48,271 bases of DNA from Flavobacteriaceae bacterium (lineage in GTDB: Bacteria; Bacteroidota; Bacteroidia; Flavobacteriales; Flavobacteriaceae). The stretch is from assembly GCA_024763365.1 (NCBI GenBank), contig JANTFO010000004.1:1-48271 (forward strand), in the 5' to 3' direction. How positions within the stretch are numbered: position 1 is the first letter of the stretch; every line of letters begins with the position of its first letter. Below, in pieces: positions 13,197 to 20,681 of the stretch. Under the pieces are notes generated by a model, which searched no databases, was not told the origin of the DNA, and was given only the letters and a program-made list of their open reading frames with translations. Position numbers and translations under genes: made by a program.

Positions 13197-13219
13197 AGCG
13201 AAACAGATCATTAAAAGAA

Positions 13220-13260
13220 CTTAAAAACCCAAAGGTTTTCGAAACCTTTGGGTTTTTAAG
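13220..13260. terminator. Bidirectional terminator between OsmC gene and TonB receptor
   Basis: Perfect 19-bp stem with a TCG loop. The arm reads CTTAAAAACCCAAAGGTTT and its reverse complement follows, so T-runs occur on either strand. It separates convergent genes and probably ends both the OsmC message and the carotenoid operon. Confidence 0.85.
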
Positions 13261-13288
13261 TTTTCCAAACAATATAAGTTTGGAAAAC
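13260..13288. terminator. Second hairpin of the tandem terminator
   Basis: Arms GTTTTCCAAAC and GTTTGGAAAAC are perfect reverse complements around a 7-nt loop, starting on the last base of the first hairpin. It is the first structure met by transcripts leaving the TonB receptor gene. Confidence 0.65.
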
Positions 13289-13304
13289 ATTATAATAGCT
13301 TTGT

Positions 13305-15716
13305 TTAAAAATCCACGGTAATACCAATAGAGGGTAATACATTCCCGCTTTCGTTTTCTATCAATTCGTATCGGTAGCTGTTAGGGTCTGACTCAGAAGG
13401 GAGTGGAAGGCCCTGTTCATCATAAATTACGCTGAAATAGGGAGGGTTTTCCACAACAGCAGCATAGACATTTTGCACATCGAGATAGAGATCCAATGCC
13501 CATTTGTTGAAGTACCATTTTTTATCAATTCTTAGATCCAGCCCATGGGTAGCTTTTAATCTTTCCGTATTAAGATTAGTGTAATCCAACACACCTTGTT
13601 GGTTTACATCCCAAACTGTTTTTAAAGCCGAGACCTGTGTGTTAAAAGGCGTAAAAGGAGCACCTCCCAAAAACCTGAATTTTAATCCTAACTCCCAGTC
13701 TTTACTGAATTTGTAGCCGCCTAACACATTAAAGATATGCCGGTTATCCCAAGCTGAAGCCACGTATTTATCATCATTGTTTTCAAATTCACTTCGCACA
13801 TAGGTATATGTGAAACTGCCAAAGATCTTTTTGGTCAGCTTTTGCGTACCTGATATTTCAAAACCATAACTGCGCCCTTTAGCATTAGAAATAACTTCCG
13901 TATTCCCAATCACCCCGTAATCACTACCTAGATTGGCCAAAGAAATGCCGTCTAAAACACTAAAGGGATATTGGTCATATTTCTTATAAAAACCTTCCAT
14001 TTTAAGTTGAAAATAATCGGTAGGTGTCCAACTATAGCCACTTACATATTGCCAAACATTGATATAGGTGACGTCATTTTCTTTATTGATCAAATTACCG
14101 TTATCATCTTTATAGCCAAGAACAGTATAGGCCGGTAATTGAAAGTAATTTCCAATACTCCCCGATAGTGTGTGTTGATTATTAAAATTATAGGATATTG
14201 CCAATCGGGGGGACAATTGTTCCAAAGGATTGGCCATCTTTGCCGAATAAGAGTTAAAATCGCTTCTCAGGCTAAGTGATACATCTAGCTTGTCTTTCAA
14301 AAAACTACGATTGACCTGTGCAAACAGTGCATATTTTTGTAAGCTCAATTCCGAGTCAATATTGACGTTGGTGATCAAATCGCCAATATTGATCTGTTGG
14401 AAAGTTTTGTTATTGTATTTTACATATTGCCAACCTAGACCCGTGTACCATTTCCAACGTCCGTCGGTATAGTGGTATTCATAACGCAATTTGTTCTCAA
14501 TTTCCTGTGATTGGTAGTCGAGTAATTTATTTTCTTCCGTTTCAATATTGTATCTGTATTTATTGGAAGTATTATTCAGCATGTTACGGCTCAAAACGGT
14601 TTGATGATACCCATGGGTAGTATTTCGTCTCCAATTGGCACCTATGGCATAGTTCCATTGTTCAAATTTGGGGATATTGTTTAGGATATAATTATTTCTT
14701 TTTAAGACAGCTTCATCTGTAACGCCCTCATTGACTTTTGTGTTGAGTTCAAAGTTGTCAATGGCTCCCAAGCCTATGATTTTCAACTGGTTTTTATCAT
14801 CAAATTGAAATTTATGGACATATTGAAAATCGTTGTAAATCGGTAAGAACGGAAGTTTCAGTTGCTCAAATAAAAATTGTAAATAAGAGCGTCTGGCAGA
14901 AAGTAGCATACCGGAGTTTTCACCTGTGGGTGTATCTATGGTCAGACCAAAATCAGAAGAACCAATGGTGATATTTCCGGAGAGTTTATCAGGATTGGCA
15001 TTCTTGGTATAAATATCCATTACTGAACTCAATGCATTTCCTCGGGATACAGGGAAAGCACCTGTATAAAAATTCACATTATTAATGAAGTTCACATTGA
15101 TCATACCTACCGGCCCGCCGGATGAGCCCTGCGTGGCAAAGTGGTTGATGTTGGGGATTTCTATCCCATCCATATAAAAGCGGTTTTCGCCGGGTGCTCC
15201 CCCTCGAACGATCAAATCATTTCTAAAGGCACTGGTCGTGGCTACACCGGGCAAATTCTGTATCACACTGGAAATATCACGGTTGGCACCGGGGCTACGC
15301 ATAATTTCTGTCACGCCAATACTGCTGGCACTCACCGGGCTTTCGGCTTTGCGTTGAAAAGCAGAAGTTTTGATGACTACTTCATCCAACTGGGCTAAAT
15401 TTTCTTTGAGATAAATGTCTAAATATTGACTTCTTATATTATTGATAGTCAGCTCGCTAAGCGTATAGGTTTGAAAACCTAAAAAACTCACTTGCAGGTT
15501 GTAGATGCCGGGTTTGATATTTTCTATGCTAAACTTTCCCTCCTTATCTGTAGTAGTATAATAATTGGTGTTTTGTAAGACTACATCAGCAAAAGCGAGT
15601 GGTTGGTTATCAGAAGCACTAAACACTGTCCCGGACAATTTACCGGTTTGGGAAAAAAGGTTTAAACCCAAAAAGAATAAGAATACAGTAGCTGACTTTA
15701 AAATTCTATTTTTCAT
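13305..15716 (-). CDS. TonB-dependent receptor with carboxypeptidase-like N-domain
   Basis: 803-residue outer-membrane importer. Signal peptide (to about residue 23, LFSQ), a CarboxypepD_reg-like domain (GKLSGTVFSASDNQPLAFADVVLQ, about 25-105), a plug domain with LPGVATTSAFRNDLIVRGGAPGENRFYMDGIEIP, then a barrel to the terminal aromatic-ended strand (SIGITVDF). No SusD partner is next to it. It starts three bases after the stop of the lycopene cyclase gene, so it appears to be the last gene of the carotenoid operon, an unusual companion. Its substrate is unknown; cobalamin, iron or a lipid-related compound are all only guesses. Confidence 0.9.
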   Translation of the reverse strand: MKNRILKSATVFLFFLGLNLFSQTGKLSGTVFSASDNQPLAFADVVLQNTNYYTTTDKEGKFSIENIKPGIYNLQVSFLGFQTYTLSELTINNIRSQYLDIYLKENLAQLDEVVIKTSAFQRKAESPVSASSIGVTEIMRSPGANRDISSVIQNLPGVATTSAFRNDLIVRGGAPGENRFYMDGIEIPNINHFATQGSSGGPVGMINVNFINNVNFYTGAFPVSRGNALSSVMDIYTKNANPDKLSGNITIGSSDFGLTIDTPTGENSGMLLSARRSYLQFLFEQLKLPFLPIYNDFQYVHKFQFDDKNQLKIIGLGAIDNFELNTKVNEGVTDEAVLKRNNYILNNIPKFEQWNYAIGANWRRNTTHGYHQTVLSRNMLNNTSNKYRYNIETEENKLLDYQSQEIENKLRYEYHYTDGRWKWYTGLGWQYVKYNNKTFQQINIGDLITNVNIDSELSLQKYALFAQVNRSFLKDKLDVSLSLRSDFNSYSAKMANPLEQLSPRLAISYNFNNQHTLSGSIGNYFQLPAYTVLGYKDDNGNLINKENDVTYINVWQYVSGYSWTPTDYFQLKMEGFYKKYDQYPFSVLDGISLANLGSDYGVIGNTEVISNAKGRSYGFEISGTQKLTKKIFGSFTYTYVRSEFENNDDKYVASAWDNRHIFNVLGGYKFSKDWELGLKFRFLGGAPFTPFNTQVSALKTVWDVNQQGVLDYTNLNTERLKATHGLDLRIDKKWYFNKWALDLYLDVQNVYAAVVENPPYFSVIYDEQGLPLPSESDPNSYRYELIENESGNVLPSIGITVDF

Positions 15717-15719
15717 AAA

Positions 15720-16415
15720 TTAATTATTTTTCCAATGAATTTGTGTAAAACGATCGATCAATAACAAACTCATTAACAACATACTAAAAGTATATCCAAA
15801 ATCTTCTGCCGGGATACTGATAAAACGCACACCTAAATTTTCAAGGTCATTGTACCAAACTACAGGTTCTGTTGTAAACATTCCGGTAAGCAAGCCATTG
15901 ACTAAGGTGAATGGAATCAAAATGATTAAAAAGGCGAGATAAAAGCGCCGCAGTATTTGTGGTTTGAAAATTAGTGCTATTAGTAGGATTATTAAAAAAG
16001 TTGAAAAATTGATCAAGGTATAAGCTTTATTATAATTGAGACCTACTAAGATTAGCACTCCAATAATGAGAAATATACTAATTAATTTCGTAAGCTTAAT
16101 CGAAATTAGCAAGTTGGGTTTAAAATATTGAAGTGAATAGTGTATGAACAGGCTGGCAAAGGGAATCAACCAGAAAAAAAGCCATTCTTCAATGGGTAAG
16201 TGTAAAATTTTAATACCGGAAATATATTTATCATTAAATCCCCAATAGCCATTTTTGGTAAAAAAAACATCCCATATCAGAAAATAACCAGCGGTGATAC
16301 TCATAGCTGCTAAAACTGGTTTCCACCATCTGATCAGCCTCATTTTGGGATGAAAACTGTAAAGAAACGGAATACTAAAAGATACTATAAGGGCAACAAG
16401 ATATGTGTATTTCAT
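15720..16415 (-). CDS. crtYcd: Lycopene cyclase (CrtYc/CrtYd-type fused membrane protein)
   Basis: 231 residues with about seven hydrophobic helices, the fused form of the two-part lycopene beta-cyclase of actinobacteria and Flavobacteriia. The PIEE motif at about 74-77 (LHLPIEEWLFFWLIPF) and FTKNGYWGFNDKYISG just before it are typical. The enzyme closes both ends of lycopene to give beta-carotene at the inner membrane. Its start overlaps the crtZ stop by four bases and its stop is three bases before the TonB receptor. Confidence 0.88.
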   Translation of the reverse strand: MKYTYLVALIVSFSIPFLYSFHPKMRLIRWWKPVLAAMSITAGYFLIWDVFFTKNGYWGFNDKYISGIKILHLPIEEWLFFWLIPFASLFIHYSLQYFKPNLLISIKLTKLISIFLIIGVLILVGLNYNKAYTLINFSTFLIILLIALIFKPQILRRFYLAFLIILIPFTLVNGLLTGMFTTEPVVWYNDLENLGVRFISIPAEDFGYTFSMLLMSLLLIDRFTQIHWKNN

Positions 16416-16885
16416 ACTGCTTTATTAACTTTTCTTTTTTCTCTAAAAAAACGTAAAGGAACCCATAGCATACCAAATGATTCCCCATCCTCTTTAGTTA
16501 AATATTTGTGGTGTACCTTATGACCTTTTCGCAGGGCATTTAAATACCAGTTGTCTATACCATCCAGCCATTTAAAACGCCTGTGTATCATAACATCATG
16601 AATGAGAAAATAGCCAATGCCATAAAATAAAATACCCAGACCAATAAAAAATTTGAAATTTAATGCAGGGTGAACACCATAATAAAACAGCAATATACTG
16701 GGTATGGCAAAAATGACAAAAAACAAATCGTTTTTCTCAAAAACCGAAGTGTATTTGGGTTGGTGATGGTCTTCGTGGAGATACCAAAGAAACCCATGCA
16801 TGACGTATTTATGTGTCAGCCAAGTAACACCTTCCATCAGGATAAATGTTACAAATGTGATAGCAATATAAAGTAAACTAGTCAT
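16412..16885 (-). CDS. crtZ: Beta-carotene hydroxylase, di-iron membrane type
   Basis: 157 residues of the fatty-acid hydroxylase superfamily. The histidine clusters that hold the di-iron site are all visible: H25/H30 (HKYVMH), H37/H40/H41 (HEDHH), H96/H101 (HDVMIH) and H122/H125/H126 (HKVHH). Hydrophobic helices surround them. CrtZ adds hydroxyl groups at C3 and C3' of beta-carotene to give zeaxanthin. It overlaps both neighbours by four bases, which points to translational coupling in the carotenoid operon. Confidence 0.9.
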   Translation of the reverse strand: MTSLLYIAITFVTFILMEGVTWLTHKYVMHGFLWYLHEDHHQPKYTSVFEKNDLFFVIFAIPSILLFYYGVHPALNFKFFIGLGILFYGIGYFLIHDVMIHRRFKWLDGIDNWYLNALRKGHKVHHKYLTKEDGESFGMLWVPLRFFREKRKVNKAV

Positions 16886-17370
16886 GATAAATCGTTTAAA
16901 TGTTTTGCTAAGGTAATTTTAATGTCCTTAATTTTCAACAAGTTTTTAAGCATCTTTTTTTTATGCTTATGAGTCGCTTCAGGATATTTTTTGATAAAAA
17001 AGTCCAGATCGCTTTTTTTGTTTTTATTAAATCCTAAAAAATTAGGTAATTGGTGTTGAAAAACCAACCTGATGTACCTGTATTCAATATTTTCTGGCTG
17101 TTTAGAACAAGCTTCGTTTACCAGTGCTTTTCCCTTTTTGAAAAATTTGTATTTCTGAAAAGGTGAACCTATATATTTTGATTTGTAAAAGTACAATGCA
17201 CCTTTATACAAGAGGGCTAAATCTGATTTTTTTTCATCTATTTTTTCCAGAAATACCATTGTCTCTTGCTCATCAATATAAGGGAACTCCAGCCTAAGTT
17301 TTTCCAGTTCTTGTGCTTGAGTTACAAGTAAGTTCAACAAAAATAATATGTACAGTGAAATTTTTATCAC
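16882..17370 (-). CDS. Unknown secreted helical protein in the carotenoid operon
   Basis: 162 residues. The first 20 form a signal peptide (MIKISLYILFLLNLLVTQAQ). The mature part is lysine-rich and mostly helical, with repeat-like helices (LALLYKGALYFYKSKYIG, KYKFFKKGKALVNEACSKQPENIEYRYIRLVFQ) that resemble TPR-like packing. I recognise no enzyme motif. Its stop overlaps the crtZ start and its start shares one base with the crtB stop, so it is firmly embedded between two carotenoid genes. A periplasmic role in pigment handling or enzyme assembly is possible but unproven. Confidence 0.7.
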   Translation of the reverse strand: MIKISLYILFLLNLLVTQAQELEKLRLEFPYIDEQETMVFLEKIDEKKSDLALLYKGALYFYKSKYIGSPFQKYKFFKKGKALVNEACSKQPENIEYRYIRLVFQHQLPNFLGFNKNKKSDLDFFIKKYPEATHKHKKKMLKNLLKIKDIKITLAKHLNDLS

Positions 17371-18209
17371 TACAAAAGATTAAGTTTGACAATTGCAAAT
17401 GACCGGGCTAATAAACCTATTTTCATAGTATTAGATACCCTTACACGAGCTTGCATGATTTCATGATAAGGTGTCCTTTTGAGTTTTTTCAATAATTTCC
17501 GATAATAAAGATAAGCTGTGTAAACACCTAATTTTGCCTCTAGCGGAAGCTTTTTGATACCTTGGAGGGCTATGTAAAAATCATTTTCAATATCCTTTAC
17601 AATTTGTTGCTTAGTTGCGTGGTTAAATTGCGATTGGTTCAAATTGGGAAAGTAACTACGGTCGAGTTGCTCTATGTCAGCTTTTATATCACGTAAGAAA
17701 TTCACTTTTTGAAATGCAGAACCCAATTTTTCGGCATAAAATTTCAGTTCATCATATTTTTTCTGGTCTCCCTGAACAAAAACTTTTAAGCACATCAAGC
17801 CTACTACATCTGCTGAGCCGTAAATATAGTCTTGATAATCAGCATATGAATCATAGTTGCTCTGTGTGAGATCACGGCGCATACTTTTTAAAAAGTGCTG
17901 GATTTGAATATCATCAATGTTGTTTTTTTTGACAGTATGCTGAAAAGCATTCAATACAGGATTTAAACTGATGCCATCTTGGAAAGCTTCGTAGTAATCA
18001 TCTTCAAATTTATCCAAGAGCCTTTCTTTTTCAAAACCGTGAAAACTATCAACAATCTCATCGGCCAATCTTACAAAAGCATAAATATTATAAATGTCTT
18101 TCCTTATTTTTGGTGCTAATAAATTGACAGCAAGTGAAAAGGAGGTGCTGTACTTTCTGGTAACAACCTGACTGATCCGCTCAGAGGTTTGATCAAATAA
18201 AGCTTTCAT
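17370..18209 (-). CDS. crtB: Phytoene synthase
   Basis: 279 residues, squalene/phytoene synthase family. It joins two geranylgeranyl diphosphates head to head to make phytoene. The two aspartate-rich Mg-binding motifs are seen: DEIVD at 50-54 (after IYAFVRLA) and LRDIKADIEQLDRSYFP at about 170-186. YGSADVVGLMCLKVF is also typical. It sits 11 bases after crtI and overlaps the next gene by one base. The GGPP synthase gene crtE is not in the window. Confidence 0.93.
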   Translation of the reverse strand: MKALFDQTSERISQVVTRKYSTSFSLAVNLLAPKIRKDIYNIYAFVRLADEIVDSFHGFEKERLLDKFEDDYYEAFQDGISLNPVLNAFQHTVKKNNIDDIQIQHFLKSMRRDLTQSNYDSYADYQDYIYGSADVVGLMCLKVFVQGDQKKYDELKFYAEKLGSAFQKVNFLRDIKADIEQLDRSYFPNLNQSQFNHATKQQIVKDIENDFYIALQGIKKLPLEAKLGVYTAYLYYRKLLKKLKRTPYHEIMQARVRVSNTMKIGLLARSFAIVKLNLL

Positions 18210-18220
18210 TTTTGTAATTT

Positions 18221-19681
18221 TTAGTTAGTAGTTTTTAGGATATGGTCAGCTACAATCTTTCCAGATATCAATGCCGGTGGAACACCAGGGCCGGGAACAG
18301 TTAACTGGCCGGAGAAATACAGATTTTTTAATTTATGATTCTTAATTTTTGGCCTCAAGAATGCAGTTTGTTTTAAAATATTGGCTAAACCGTAGGCATT
18401 TCCTTTATAAGAGTGGTAGTCTTCAATAAAATCATTAACTGCATAAGATCTGTAGAACAGAATATGATCTTTCACAGTTTGTCCTGTTAATTTCTCTAGC
18501 CTGTTCAGTACCATGTCCAGATATTTTAATCTTGTCACAGGTTCGTCCTTTAATCCCGGTGCTATGGGAATTAAAAAAGTAGCGGTTTCTTTGCCCTTAG
18601 GAGCCATGCTAGGGTCAGTTTTTCCGGGGAAACTAGCATAAAATAATGGACTTTCAGGCCATTTTTTACTGTCGTATATTTCTGCAGAATGCTTCTTAAA
18701 GTCTGTGTCAAAGAATAAGGTATGGTGCAATACATTGTCTAATTCCTTGTCAAAAGCAATGTAAAACAATAGTGAGGATGGCGCAAAAGTTTTCTTTGAC
18801 CAATATTTTTCTGAATACCTACGGAAGTGCTCTGGCAGAAGTTGTTCAGTATGATGGTAATCTGCACCACTAATAAAAATATCAGCAGGGAAATAGTCGG
18901 TTTTAGTATTAATACCCACTACTTTATCTTTTTCGATCTCAAATCCTTTTACTTCCTGATTAATATGGTATTTTACTCCCAATTCCTTGCCTAATTCAAC
19001 CATACCTTTTACGACTGCACTCATTCCACCTTTGGGATGCCAGGTGCCTAAACCAAAGTCTGCATAGTTCATAAAATTATAAAATGCTGGGGTATTAGTA
19101 GGCTTGGCACCTAAAAACAGAACTGGAAATTCTAGGATTTGCCTTAGTTTAGGGTTTTTGAATTTCTGATGAATTTTTTTACTGATACTACTAAAGAAAA
19201 GTGGCAACCTTTTCATGGTGTCCAAATTCACCAATTCAAAGGGACTGATCCCAGGCTTATATACCAGATCTTTGATGGCTATGTTATAGTTATTTGCAGC
19301 TTGCGTAATGTACTTTTCTAATTTTTTACCACTTCCTTTCTCAATTTTATCAAATGTTTCAATGATTTCGTATAAAAAAGCTGATATATCAATATAGTCG
19401 TTTTTCTCAAAGTAAACTCGATAGGCCGGATTTAGTTTTTCTATTTTGTAAAAGTCATTAGGTTGTTTTCCAAAATCCTGAAAAAAAGATTCAAATACGT
19501 CAGGCATCCAGTACCAGGTAGGGCCCATATCAAAGGTGAAGCCGTTTTTTTGAAAAACTTGAGCACGGCCCCCCAAGTAATTGTTTTTTTCAAATACATT
19601 TACCTCGTACCCTGCTTTAGCCATGTAGGCTGCAGAAGCGAGACTAGAAAAACCGGATCCTATGATGTTAACTTTTTTCAT
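18221..19681 (-). CDS. crtI: Phytoene desaturase
   Basis: 486 residues from the ATG at 19681; an upstream TTG (19711) would add a run of residues encoded by the repeat region and is rejected. The N-terminus is a Rossmann FAD site (VNIIGSGFSSLASAAYMAKAGYEVNVFEKNNYLGGRA). The C-terminus contains LYFSGQLTVPGPGVPPALISG, a signature of the bacterial CrtI family. It converts phytoene to lycopene by four dehydrogenations. Upstream, two perfect 13-bp repeats separate it from the regulator gene. A carotene isomerase or ketolase paralogue is the main alternative, but the place in the operon favours the desaturase. Confidence 0.93.
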   Translation of the reverse strand: MKKVNIIGSGFSSLASAAYMAKAGYEVNVFEKNNYLGGRAQVFQKNGFTFDMGPTWYWMPDVFESFFQDFGKQPNDFYKIEKLNPAYRVYFEKNDYIDISAFLYEIIETFDKIEKGSGKKLEKYITQAANNYNIAIKDLVYKPGISPFELVNLDTMKRLPLFFSSISKKIHQKFKNPKLRQILEFPVLFLGAKPTNTPAFYNFMNYADFGLGTWHPKGGMSAVVKGMVELGKELGVKYHINQEVKGFEIEKDKVVGINTKTDYFPADIFISGADYHHTEQLLPEHFRRYSEKYWSKKTFAPSSLLFYIAFDKELDNVLHHTLFFDTDFKKHSAEIYDSKKWPESPLFYASFPGKTDPSMAPKGKETATFLIPIAPGLKDEPVTRLKYLDMVLNRLEKLTGQTVKDHILFYRSYAVNDFIEDYHSYKGNAYGLANILKQTAFLRPKIKNHKLKNLYFSGQLTVPGPGVPPALISGKIVADHILKTTN

Positions 19682-19687
19682 GTTTAA

Positions 19688-19695
19688 CAAAAATA
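19688..19695 (-). promoter_or_regulatory. Candidate -7 element just before crtI
   Basis: TATTTTTG read on the minus strand, directly next to the 13-bp tandem repeats and only six bases before the crtI ATG. A start here would give a nearly leaderless mRNA for the carotenoid genes and would place the repeats at the -15 to -40 region where a repressor could block RNA polymerase. Confidence 0.5.
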
Positions 19696-19721
19696 CAAAA
19701 AAGTTAAACAAAAAAGTTAAA
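19696..19721 (-). repeat. Two perfect 13-bp tandem repeats (candidate regulator sites)
   Basis: On the minus strand TTTAACTTTTTTG occurs at 19721-19709 and again at 19708-19696 without a gap, just upstream of the TATTTTTG element of crtI. CarH-type regulators bind direct repeats that overlap the -35 region of their target promoter, so these are good candidate operators for the adjacent B12-MerR protein. The last base of the repeat array is one base from the merR stop. Confidence 0.6.
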
Positions 19722-20621
19722 TCATATATTATTTAACAAATCTTTAATATTTTTGAAGACCTTAATTTTCGGTTTTACAAGGTTTAAATCTATTTCATTG
19801 GTCTTTTGTCCACTTACCCAACATTCACTATCACTACTTTGTAATAATTTTTGGTAGATTTTATCCAGGTAATCATGAATTTGATCTCCCGGAGGGTTCA
19901 CAATAAACTGTGTAACAAAAACGGTATGCTTAAAGATTTTCTGAACTTTCTGCAGGTCACAAAGCGGTATGCTATGCCCTAAAAAGATAGTGTGATATGA
20001 TTTTAGAATCAGTTCATATTGAATATAAAGAAGCCCTAAATTGTGTATTTCATTCTCAGGGAGGAATAAAACAAAGGTTTTATTTTTGTTAGGAATAGAA
20101 CTTTGTGTTTTTTCAATATTGATATGTAATTTATTTTCAATTAATTGAGAGATGAAATGCTCGTGAGCAGGAGAGATCGTGTTAGTCTGCCAAAGAAATC
20201 CTATCATATCCAGAAGCGGTATAAATACTTCTTGAAATATTTCCCTAAAGCTGTACTGTTGCAGTAAACCGAAATAGGTGGCATTAAACAATTGTACATC
20301 AAAACTAAACATGGCCAATTGGAATTGCTTAATGGCTTCATTTTTCATAAGATCACCGAAAGTTAATTCTTTGACAGTAGCTTGAAGTTCTATGGGTTTG
20401 AGTTTGGCTATTTTAGATATTTTCCATCCGTTATTATTTAAAAAACTGATATTGAGTAACTTTTTTAAGTCCTCAATATCATATAACCTTTCATTATTTC
20501 CATGCCTTGTGGGATTAAACAGATCATAACGTTTTTCCCATATCCTTATCGTATGAGCTTTGATCCCGGATAAGTTTTCAAAGTCACTGATGGAAAATTG
20601 ATTTTTTATATTGTTCAACAT
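19722..20621 (-). CDS. MerR-family regulator with B12-binding domain (CarH/LitR-like)
   Basis: 299 residues from the ATG at 20621; the TTG 21 bases upstream is less likely. Residues about 10-75 are a MerR winged helix (FSISDFENLSGIKAHTIRIWEKRY). The C-terminal part matches the cobalamin module of CarH: W144 followed nine residues later by E154-H155 (the Wx9EH motif that caps adenosylcobalamin), then E191-I-H193-N-L-G196, the ExHxxG motif whose His ligates cobalt in CarH. In CarH the residue after the Trp is the His that forms the light-state bis-His adduct; here it is Gln. The gene lies directly upstream of the carotenoid genes, fitting a light-sensing repressor. B12 binding is inferred from motifs. 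Confidence 0.85.
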   Translation of the reverse strand: MLNNIKNQFSISDFENLSGIKAHTIRIWEKRYDLFNPTRHGNNERLYDIEDLKKLLNISFLNNNGWKISKIAKLKPIELQATVKELTFGDLMKNEAIKQFQLAMFSFDVQLFNATYFGLLQQYSFREIFQEVFIPLLDMIGFLWQTNTISPAHEHFISQLIENKLHINIEKTQSSIPNKNKTFVLFLPENEIHNLGLLYIQYELILKSYHTIFLGHSIPLCDLQKVQKIFKHTVFVTQFIVNPPGDQIHDYLDKIYQKLLQSSDSECWVSGQKTNEIDLNLVKPKIKVFKNIKDLLNNI

Positions 20622-20642
20622 AGATATAAATATATTGAACAA
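20611..20642. promoter_or_regulatory. Inverted TTGTTCAA half-sites across the merR start
   Basis: TTGTTCAA at 20611-20618 and its reverse complement at 20635-20642, 16 bases apart, bracket the ATG at 20619-20621. The upstream arm overlaps the -7 element TATTTTTG (20640-20647, minus). The same half-site form TTGTTnAA recurs upstream of crtI. This suggests autoregulation, but AT richness makes chance matches easy. Confidence 0.45.
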
Positions 20643-20647
20643 AAATA
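20640..20647 (-). promoter_or_regulatory. -7 element of the merR-carotenoid operon
   Basis: TATTTTTG on the minus strand, about 19 bases before the merR ATG. I see no good -33 element. It would start the whole regulator-carotenoid-receptor transcript. Confidence 0.45.
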
Positions 20648-20681
20648 TTAAAAATATTTAAAACTTATAACTTGTTGAAAT

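Follow-up and report, generated by a model that had tools for sequence, protein, structure and literature searches.

A CarH-like regulator, carotenoid genes, and a TonB-dependent receptor in one flavobacterial cluster: a candidate light regulon with a predicted palindromic operator

Why does a gene for a TonB-dependent receptor (TBDR) stand at the end of a carotenoid gene cluster that starts with a CarH-like regulator? This arrangement occurs on the minus strand of a 48,271-nt contig stretch from a Flavobacteriaceae bacterium (contig JANTFO010000004.1), where "the window" refers throughout to the whole stretch. From gene content, residue conservation, a conserved dyad, linkage within a receptor clade, the presence of this dyad in shared carH-TBDR intergenic regions of other lineages, and an empty site in sister species, all computed here, we propose as a moderately probable model that a Bacteroidota CarH switch controls crtI, crtB, a gene without assigned family, crtZ, crtYcd, and the TBDR gene by light. 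Without light, the CarH-like protein, loaded with adenosylcobalamin (AdoCbl), would sit on an inverted repeat covering the -7 element of crtI and block transcription. Light would break the Co-C bond, the regulator would leave the DNA, and a single transcript from crtI through the TBDR gene would then be made. The enzymes would yield a yellow pigment, a beta-ring hydroxylated carotenoid probably of the zeaxanthin type, and the TBDR, made in the same light-induced burst, would carry out TonB-driven import of a substrate useful under light stress.

The regulator (20621-19722, minus strand; 299 amino acids [aa]) combines a MerR helix-turn-helix (HTH) with a B12-binding four-helix domain [Pfam MerR_1 (PF13411), 7.1e-13; B12-binding_2 (PF02607), 8e-9], and showed no match to PF02310 at E≤0.001. 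It matched the CarH crystal sequences 5c8d and 3whp in phmmer at ~1e-12. Both cobalamin motifs claimed for this MerR protein in the original prediction are present as WQTNTISPAHEH (W-x9-EH) and EIHNLG (ExHxxG), and they align with the contact residues W131, E141/H142, and H177 of Thermus CarH (TtCarH). These AdoCbl-contact residues are conserved among the homologue rows (W131, 82/82; E141, 82/82; H142, 78/82; H177, 80/82), where 8 of 90 carH rows with mis-called starts were left out and genome G031 is represented twice (L085 and L123). The AdoCbl contacts, the conserved dyad on the crtI promoter described below, and a cobalamin adenosyltransferase gene in the genome support well the CarH/LitR-type control of the crt genes that had been predicted, in which the regulator would bind AdoCbl and respond to light.

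The regulator contains Gln at the position of His132, from which a possibly different light response had been predicted. The replacement is real, but it is the family norm (Gln in 53/82 homologues and His in 3/82), so that an altered photochemical end-state is plausible for the family at large and is not specific to the window. In TtCarH, His132 becomes the second axial ligand when the protein is in its light state. Photoreceptors vary at this position, and Gln also occupies it in SasPcob, a B12 photoreceptor for which a biliverdin-binding region is predicted (PMC11796333). A TtCarH H132A protein was mostly tetrameric after light, whereas an earlier report quoted in the same source says otherwise (PMC10442372). 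Because photoreceptors vary at position 132 (PMC11796333), we take His132 as non-defining for CarH/LitR class I. The nearly invariant other AdoCbl contacts, together with the prevalence of Gln and rarity of His at this position, imply that the Bacteroidota protein probably still senses light via AdoCbl but is unable to form a bis-His end state. MliR (PMC9478572) was rejected as a relative, as it is a MerR protein without an effector domain and does not belong to the regulator's family. Separately, CarH homologues encoded divergently from TBDR genes at L159, L160, L162, L166, L169, L170, L172, L173, L177, and L203 lack the full ExHxxG motif; those displayed in the residue alignment keep W, EH, and ExH, and the Ala in place of Gly180 and an altered corrin-side loop make their B12 dependence uncertain.

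The predicted CarH operator is a 28-bp inverted repeat, GTTTAAC-N14-GTTAAAC (19682-19709, minus strand), that abuts the crtI ATG and overlaps the -7 element TATTTTTG (19695-19688, minus strand), which we take to follow the Bacteroidota -7 consensus. Since the dyad touches the ATG, a leaderless crtI mRNA is likely. Short words with TTGTTTAA were strongly over-represented upstream of carH (56/90) and crtI (40/77) compared to 2.6% of 1758 control segments. The motif was refined to GTTTAAY-N14-GYTAAAC, and 21/77 crtI upstream segments contain this dyad with N14, one contains it with N15, and none (0/77) contains the strict dyad at other spacings between 8 and 25; the strict dyad occurs upstream of carH in 2/90 cases. 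The T and A that flank the arms, which the search pattern did not include, show 96-100% conservation, symmetrically on both sides, and a TAnnTTTG element lies inside the right half of 21/21 crtI dyads. A direct-repeat reading of the operator was disfavoured, because only in crtI sites is a TTTG generally present ahead of the second arm; as this TTTG is the -7 element there, an inverted repeat is the favoured form of the predicted site, though its arms are themselves near-palindromic. In the 2.0-Mb assembly (84% complete), one dyad copy was found, with the palindromic site counted on both strands, compared to none in the control. Among 71 genomes, at least one dyad was present in 32/43 genomes with carH and 3/28 without carH, and strand hits compared to the control numbered 94 versus 31 in the former and 5 versus 8 in the latter. 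Before carH itself, a single imperfect arm on a -7 element, TATTTTTGTTCAAT (20634-20647, minus strand), forms a weak, degenerate half-site, through which carH autoregulation is possible.

The genes behind this predicted operator agree in set and order with the original prediction, and all lie on the minus strand. crtI (19681-18221; 486 aa) encodes a phytoene desaturase [NF058655 CrtID, 712.7 bits (cut-off 640); TIGR02734, 406 bits], and crtB (18209-17370; 279 aa) a phytoene synthase (PF00494, 2.1e-49). A gene without assigned family follows (17370-16882; 162 aa with a hydrophobic N-terminus). The next product (16885-16412; 157 aa) had no Pfam or NCBIfam match and is 77% identical to its counterpart in L121; we take it to be a CrtZ-like beta-carotene hydroxylase from its HX4H, HX2HH, HX4H, and HX2HH motifs. 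crtYcd (16415-15720; 231 aa) encodes a fused heterodimer-type lycopene cyclase (PF18916 in two stretches, 1.7e-36; TIGR03462 in two stretches), and the TBDR (15716-13305; 803 aa) consists of a CarboxypepD_reg-like domain, a plug, and a beta-barrel. A hairpin resembling an intrinsic terminator (13262-13218; 20 pairs and a T-rich tail) lies between the convergent TBDR and OsmC genes; terminator-like sites in the hairpin scan did not exceed those in shuffled sequences (4 versus 5.1), though the stem at this position is long. The coordinates also confirm the tight packing of the genes: 40 bp separate carH and crtI, 11 bp separate crtI and crtB, the genes from crtB to crtYcd overlap by 1, 4, and 4 bp, and the TBDR gene starts 3 bp past crtYcd. 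A sigma-70 promoter scan was uninformative (34 promoters found compared to 33.8 in shuffles). The claim that CarH leads the operon holds physically, as carH is the first gene, but the crt-TBDR transcript probably begins at crtI, because the best predicted promoter and operator (19682-19709) sit between carH and crtI.

A survey of operon order, as had been suggested, showed carH-crtI-crtB-crtZ on 42/60 relatives' loci fetched around carH (L031-L090), and the exact window order with the TBDR gene last only in L141 among 80 TBDR loci, where some contigs are cut. L141 contains the same seven genes in the same order, with identities of 62, 68, 70, 49, 77, 58, and 64%. The crt enzyme order is ordinary, and the receptor in the cluster is the unusual part. 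Across all seven genes, L141 (same place as L121) was closest among the loci compared. In sister species G003 and G005, the two genes flanking the cluster, NifX-like and OsmC, adjoin each other with 51 and 36 bases between them (regions L251 and L253, corresponding to 13197-20681 of the window). This empty site in two sister species implies that the unit from carH to the receptor gene is present or absent as one cassette. Gain of the cassette would be a simpler explanation than repeated loss, with loss in the sisters as the alternative. A full carH homologue was absent from the six other genomes of the genus, and crtB had no match in G004, the one other genus member in the crtB sample.

We then asked whether the receptor is tied to carotenoid or carH genes beyond this cassette. 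Among the 60 carH-centred loci, L085 alone contains a high-identity receptor homologue (53%), which lies upstream in divergent orientation; two others gave weak, short hits. Of 299 genomes sampled from the family, 41 contain a receptor homologue (E≤1e-100) and 265 contain crtB (E≤1e-30); the four best receptor matches (window, G266, G305, and G031) lie ≤5 kb from crtB, and for the next three crtB is on another contig (G321 and G256) or 2.1 Mb away (G183). A species-genome scan with the four linked receptors as queries gave the 80 TBDR loci. A tree of 83 rows was built from the window, 7 loci of the family sample, and the 75 TBDR loci that remained once L157, L198, and L212 (no full open reading frame [ORF]; L198 is crt-linked) and L182 and L187 (<700 aa) had been left out. 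Rows were called linked if crtI/crtB, carH, or FAS1 is a neighbour on the locus (L143 and L153 by FAS1 only), and, for the 75 loci, unlinked if none of these is present with ≥6 kb before and ≥5 kb after the TBDR gene. crtI or crtB is present on 20/80 TBDR loci, and carH without crt on three more (L147, L160, and L167).

All 25 linked rows of the tree fall in one TBDR clade of 36 members (clade A; SH-aLRT 90), which also holds 6 unlinked and 5 unscored rows; the sister clade of 40 has no linked row, and its members are unlinked (26) or unscored (14). None of 500 label shuffles was as clustered as the observed linkage, and Fisher's test on scored rows of the two clades gave 7.5e-11, a value that is only indicative because the rows are related and ten linked rows form one close group. 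The linked TBDR genes occur in at least seven arrangements: last after crtYcd (window and L141); after crtYcd and an SDR gene (L150 and L154); after crtYcd and one gene without known function (L158); divergent from carH (ten loci, with intergenic regions of 61-154 bp and TTGTTTAA in 10/10); behind a FAS1 gene and divergent from carH (L142, L144, L147, and L204); behind DUF1295-TspO and pyrimidine-dimer glycosylase genes and divergent from carH (L167); divergent from crtI across a small unverified ORF (L184 and L219); and some genes downstream of crt (L146). Photolyase genes lie ≤8 kb away in L141, L154, L158, L184, and L219, and the linked loci look like light-protection neighbourhoods. Directly upstream of the TBDR gene, TTGTTTAA was found in 12/35 clade members compared to 4/42 others, and TTTGTTNAAY in 11/35 compared to 7/42. 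Moreover, the strict dyad lies between carH and the receptor gene in L159, L166, L173, and L203, a direct tie between this receptor clade and the CarH operator predicted here.

These distributions bear on whether the TBDR is instead a hitchhiker, placed by chance downstream of crtYcd with no tie to light or pigment. The six unlinked clade members, and a TBDR without an assigned substrate, are consistent with chance placement. However, 25/31 scoreable members are linked in the different arrangements listed, and the contrast with the sister clade is strong when rows are treated as independent, though they are related. We consider a hitchhiker very unlikely. The comparative evidence supports the placement of the receptor in the predicted light regulon, and we count it in the unit because only 3 bp separate its gene from crtYcd, L141 has the genes in identical order, and the receptor's clade is linked to crt and carH across Bacteroidota; co-transcription with the crt genes would follow from this arrangement.

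Several results weigh against the model. The regulator scored 69.9 bits with the NCBIfam equivalog NF052513 TransRegCarH, below the cut-off of 400. The background of the dyad is non-zero, as reflected in the 31 control strand hits compared to 94 in genomes with carH, and a looser operator, TANNTTTGTTNAAY, was dropped because it was not enriched (14 genome-wide hits compared to 12 in the control). Upstream of carH, the window contains the degenerate half-site only. Six members of clade A are unlinked despite adequate flanks, and linked TBDR genes that are not divergent from carH mostly lack a motif directly upstream; this lack fits with operon membership and is no independent proof of it. Lastly, a crtI-family gene over the cut-off was absent in 6/13 clade-A genomes (L147, L149, L151, L161, L167, and L195), compared to 1/20 sister-clade genomes (L171), where the 13 genomes were mostly chosen for a crt-less locus and include some incomplete assemblies, so that these fractions give no rate for the clade. 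The crtI-less genomes imply that the receptor is not strictly tied to carotenoid synthesis, and, as the TBDR gene is still near carH in L147 and L167, they favour uptake under light stress over handling of home-made pigment.

What the receptor carries was approached through its genome context and structure. The original prediction suggested import of cobalamin or a related molecule; by this account, the TBDR would take up cobalamin or another cobamide and supply the photoreceptor cofactor. Resupply would be sensible, as light destroys AdoCbl, and clade TBDR genes are linked to carH in L147 and L167, the genomes of which lack a crtI-family gene over the cut-off. The AlphaFold2 (AF2) model of the TBDR (pLDDT 84.8) has a generic TBDR fold that aligns to BtuB (Z 35.7), level with siderophore receptors, and thereby gives no substrate information. 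By contrast, the role of B12 importer already appears to be filled: directly behind the one cobalamin riboswitch detected in the window genome (contig C12:5805-6012) lies a gene for a 604-aa BtuB-like TBDR, which matches Bacteroides BtuB structures (8p97, 8p98, and 8bmx at 1e-36 to 5e-36). As for the B12-receptor features that were to be checked, the receptor of the cluster had no BtuB sequence match, no riboswitch in front, and no PDB sequence match at E≤0.01. An Rfam scan found no cobalamin riboswitch on the loci of 23 of the 36 clade-A TBDRs (L091-L094, the window among them, and 19 others), whereas 27/34 clade-A genomes searched contain one somewhere. The separate riboswitch-linked receptor, the lack of a PDB match, and the lack of riboswitches on clade loci make B12 import by this TBDR highly improbable, and its cargo is probably not cobalamin. 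The genome does contain cobalamin adenosyltransferase (PF01923) and methylmalonyl-CoA-mutase-family genes.

A second possibility is that the TBDR handles carotenoids or similar pigments, such as exogenous xanthophylls taken up and possibly handed over by FAS1 proteins. The linkage of the clade to crt genes is consistent with this, as is its persistence in some genomes without crtI. A FAS1 gene directly precedes the TBDR gene in L142, L143, L144, L147, L153, L204, L122, and L123, FAS1 genes with the dyad occur in six other genomes, and the FAS1 protein encoded at L123 is similar to the AstaP structure 8c18 (1.4e-15). However, TGFBI and periostin match this FAS1 protein better than AstaP does, the window operon contains no FAS1 gene, and we know of no TBDR with a carotenoid cargo. 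Most FAS1 domains serve in adhesion, and an AstaP homologue from a cyanobacterium fails to bind carotenoid (PMC10147662). Taken together, pigment handling seems doubtful.

Alternatively, the receptor could take up a metal chelate (iron, copper, or haem) or another nutrient under light stress, since photo-oxidative stress shifts metal demand. Regulons of this kind often join stress and metal genes. The structural neighbours of the TBDR model are mostly siderophore, copper, and pyrroloquinoline quinone (PQQ) receptors, as the content of the PDB would predict; Foldseek gave PqqU as best match (4.5e-31, 15% identity) and BtuB at 1.2e-26, and the top rows of the structural alignment were tied. These tied matches carry no substrate information, and no siderophore, haem, or metal genes were recognised beside the clade loci, where most neighbours are without annotation. 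We therefore regard a metal or nutrient receptor as possible and somewhat unlikely. A SusC/RagA identity was rejected (TIGR04056, 61.3 bits compared to the cut-off of 368, in the N-terminal part only), and no SusD match was found among eight proteins scanned. A link to a retinal or rhodopsin antenna was also rejected, as Bac_rhodopsin is absent from the window genome and is carried by 7/25 genomes with linked TBDRs compared to 10/25 other genomes.

The 162-aa protein encoded between crtB and crtZ matched no Pfam or NCBIfam family and no PDB structure in Foldseek at E≤0.001 (best 0.077). Its AF2 model (pLDDT 88) is all-helical and TPR-like by eye. Homologues are present on 19 loci, including two that duplicate others in the set. 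The gene is frequent in receptor-linked clusters (L121, L122, L123, L142, L144, L150, L154, L158, L198, and L204) and rare in the carH-sampled loci (3/60 by profile, with a fourth, L087, by tblastn). It is possible that the protein is a partner of the receptor, or that the pattern reflects shared ancestry.

Dyads elsewhere in the genomes point to further candidate targets. From the genome-wide dyad list, 20 regions with 24 dyads were picked by eye, and 21/24 dyads were assigned to recognisable genes, with Pfam applied to five proteins only and N-terminal similarity to the rest. The assigned targets were six FAS1 genes, seven TetR-like genes, five genes for a 142-aa protein, two desaturase-family genes, which we take to be crtW-like, and one folE; three dyads had no clear target, and as some dyads sit between divergent genes, assignment there is a guess. 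The FAS1 genes (L284, L288, L293, L294, L295, and L299) lie away from the crt locus, and their products may be light-induced envelope proteins. The TetR-like gene (~218 aa) bears the dyad in seven genomes (L287, L290, L292, L296, L297, L298, and L300), and the one protein put through Pfam contains TetR_C_23. The gene for the 142-aa protein bears it in five (L286, L290, L292, L296, and L300), with no Pfam match for the one tested. In L080, L081, L083, and L084, which come from different families within the order, carH and crtI are separated by a short gene with the dyad just upstream; by eye, this gene resembles one for an extracytoplasmic function (ECF) sigma factor. In the window genome, the overlapping, opposed half-sites TATTTTTGTTAAAC and TAGGTTTGTTTAAC (L241:3681-3701) precede a gene for a 193-aa secreted-looking protein and mark a possible second CarH target.

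CarH is the founding B12 photoreceptor, and what is known of its mechanism comes from a small number of His132-containing proteins, most of them tetramers on direct repeats. Many Bacteroidota appear to rely on a form that lacks His132 and has a predicted palindromic operator, which puts the generality of that mechanism to the test. The broader proposal, that a distinct TBDR clade belongs to a CarH light regulon across Bacteroidota and that the palindromic operator and missing His132 reflect a dimer-type switch unlike the tetramer paradigm, is more tentative, and we hold it with somewhat less than even confidence. If correct, sunlight sensed through B12 would switch on pigment, photoprotection, and the import of one particular extracellular compound across the outer membrane. 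With a TonB receptor under light control, the sensing of light would be coupled to the uptake of nutrients or pigments, and the predicted operator would make light regulons readable from genome sequence. Our literature search, in a collection that lacks most subscription journals, turned up no description of a CarH regulon that includes a TBDR and none of a CarH operator from Bacteroidota.

The general fold of the window TBDR is shared with BtuB TBDRs, from which it differs by the lack of a riboswitch and of a sequence match and by the extra CarboxypepD_reg-like domain. The light-induced carotenoid cluster of Chryseobacterium lacus (PMC7064467) likewise contains flavobacterial crt genes with a hypothetical protein beside crtB and has light-induced pigment; in the accessible main text of that paper, "TonB" is absent and the mechanism of light regulation is called unknown. 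The closest parallel is to CarH/LitR class I proteins (Thermus, Bacillus megaterium, and Myxococcus), with which the regulator shares the MerR HTH and B12-binding domain, the residues W131, E141, H142, and H177, the crt neighbours, and a predicted operator over a crt promoter, and from which it differs by the replacement of His132, as in the 53/82 homologues with Gln. TtCarH and B. megaterium CarH are tetramers that bind three or four tandem 11-bp direct repeats, unlike the 28-bp inverted repeat predicted here (PMC9304148, PMC8156234). Because operators vary in myxobacteria, we take a direct-repeat operator as non-defining for the class (PMC9304148). CarA dimers of Myxococcus bind inverted repeats, and Cystobacter CarH is a dimer, so that there is precedent both for an inverted-repeat operator over a crt promoter and for a dimeric CarH (PMC9304148). 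CarA is B12-independent and comes from another phylum, whereas the regulator described here keeps all four AdoCbl-contact residues.

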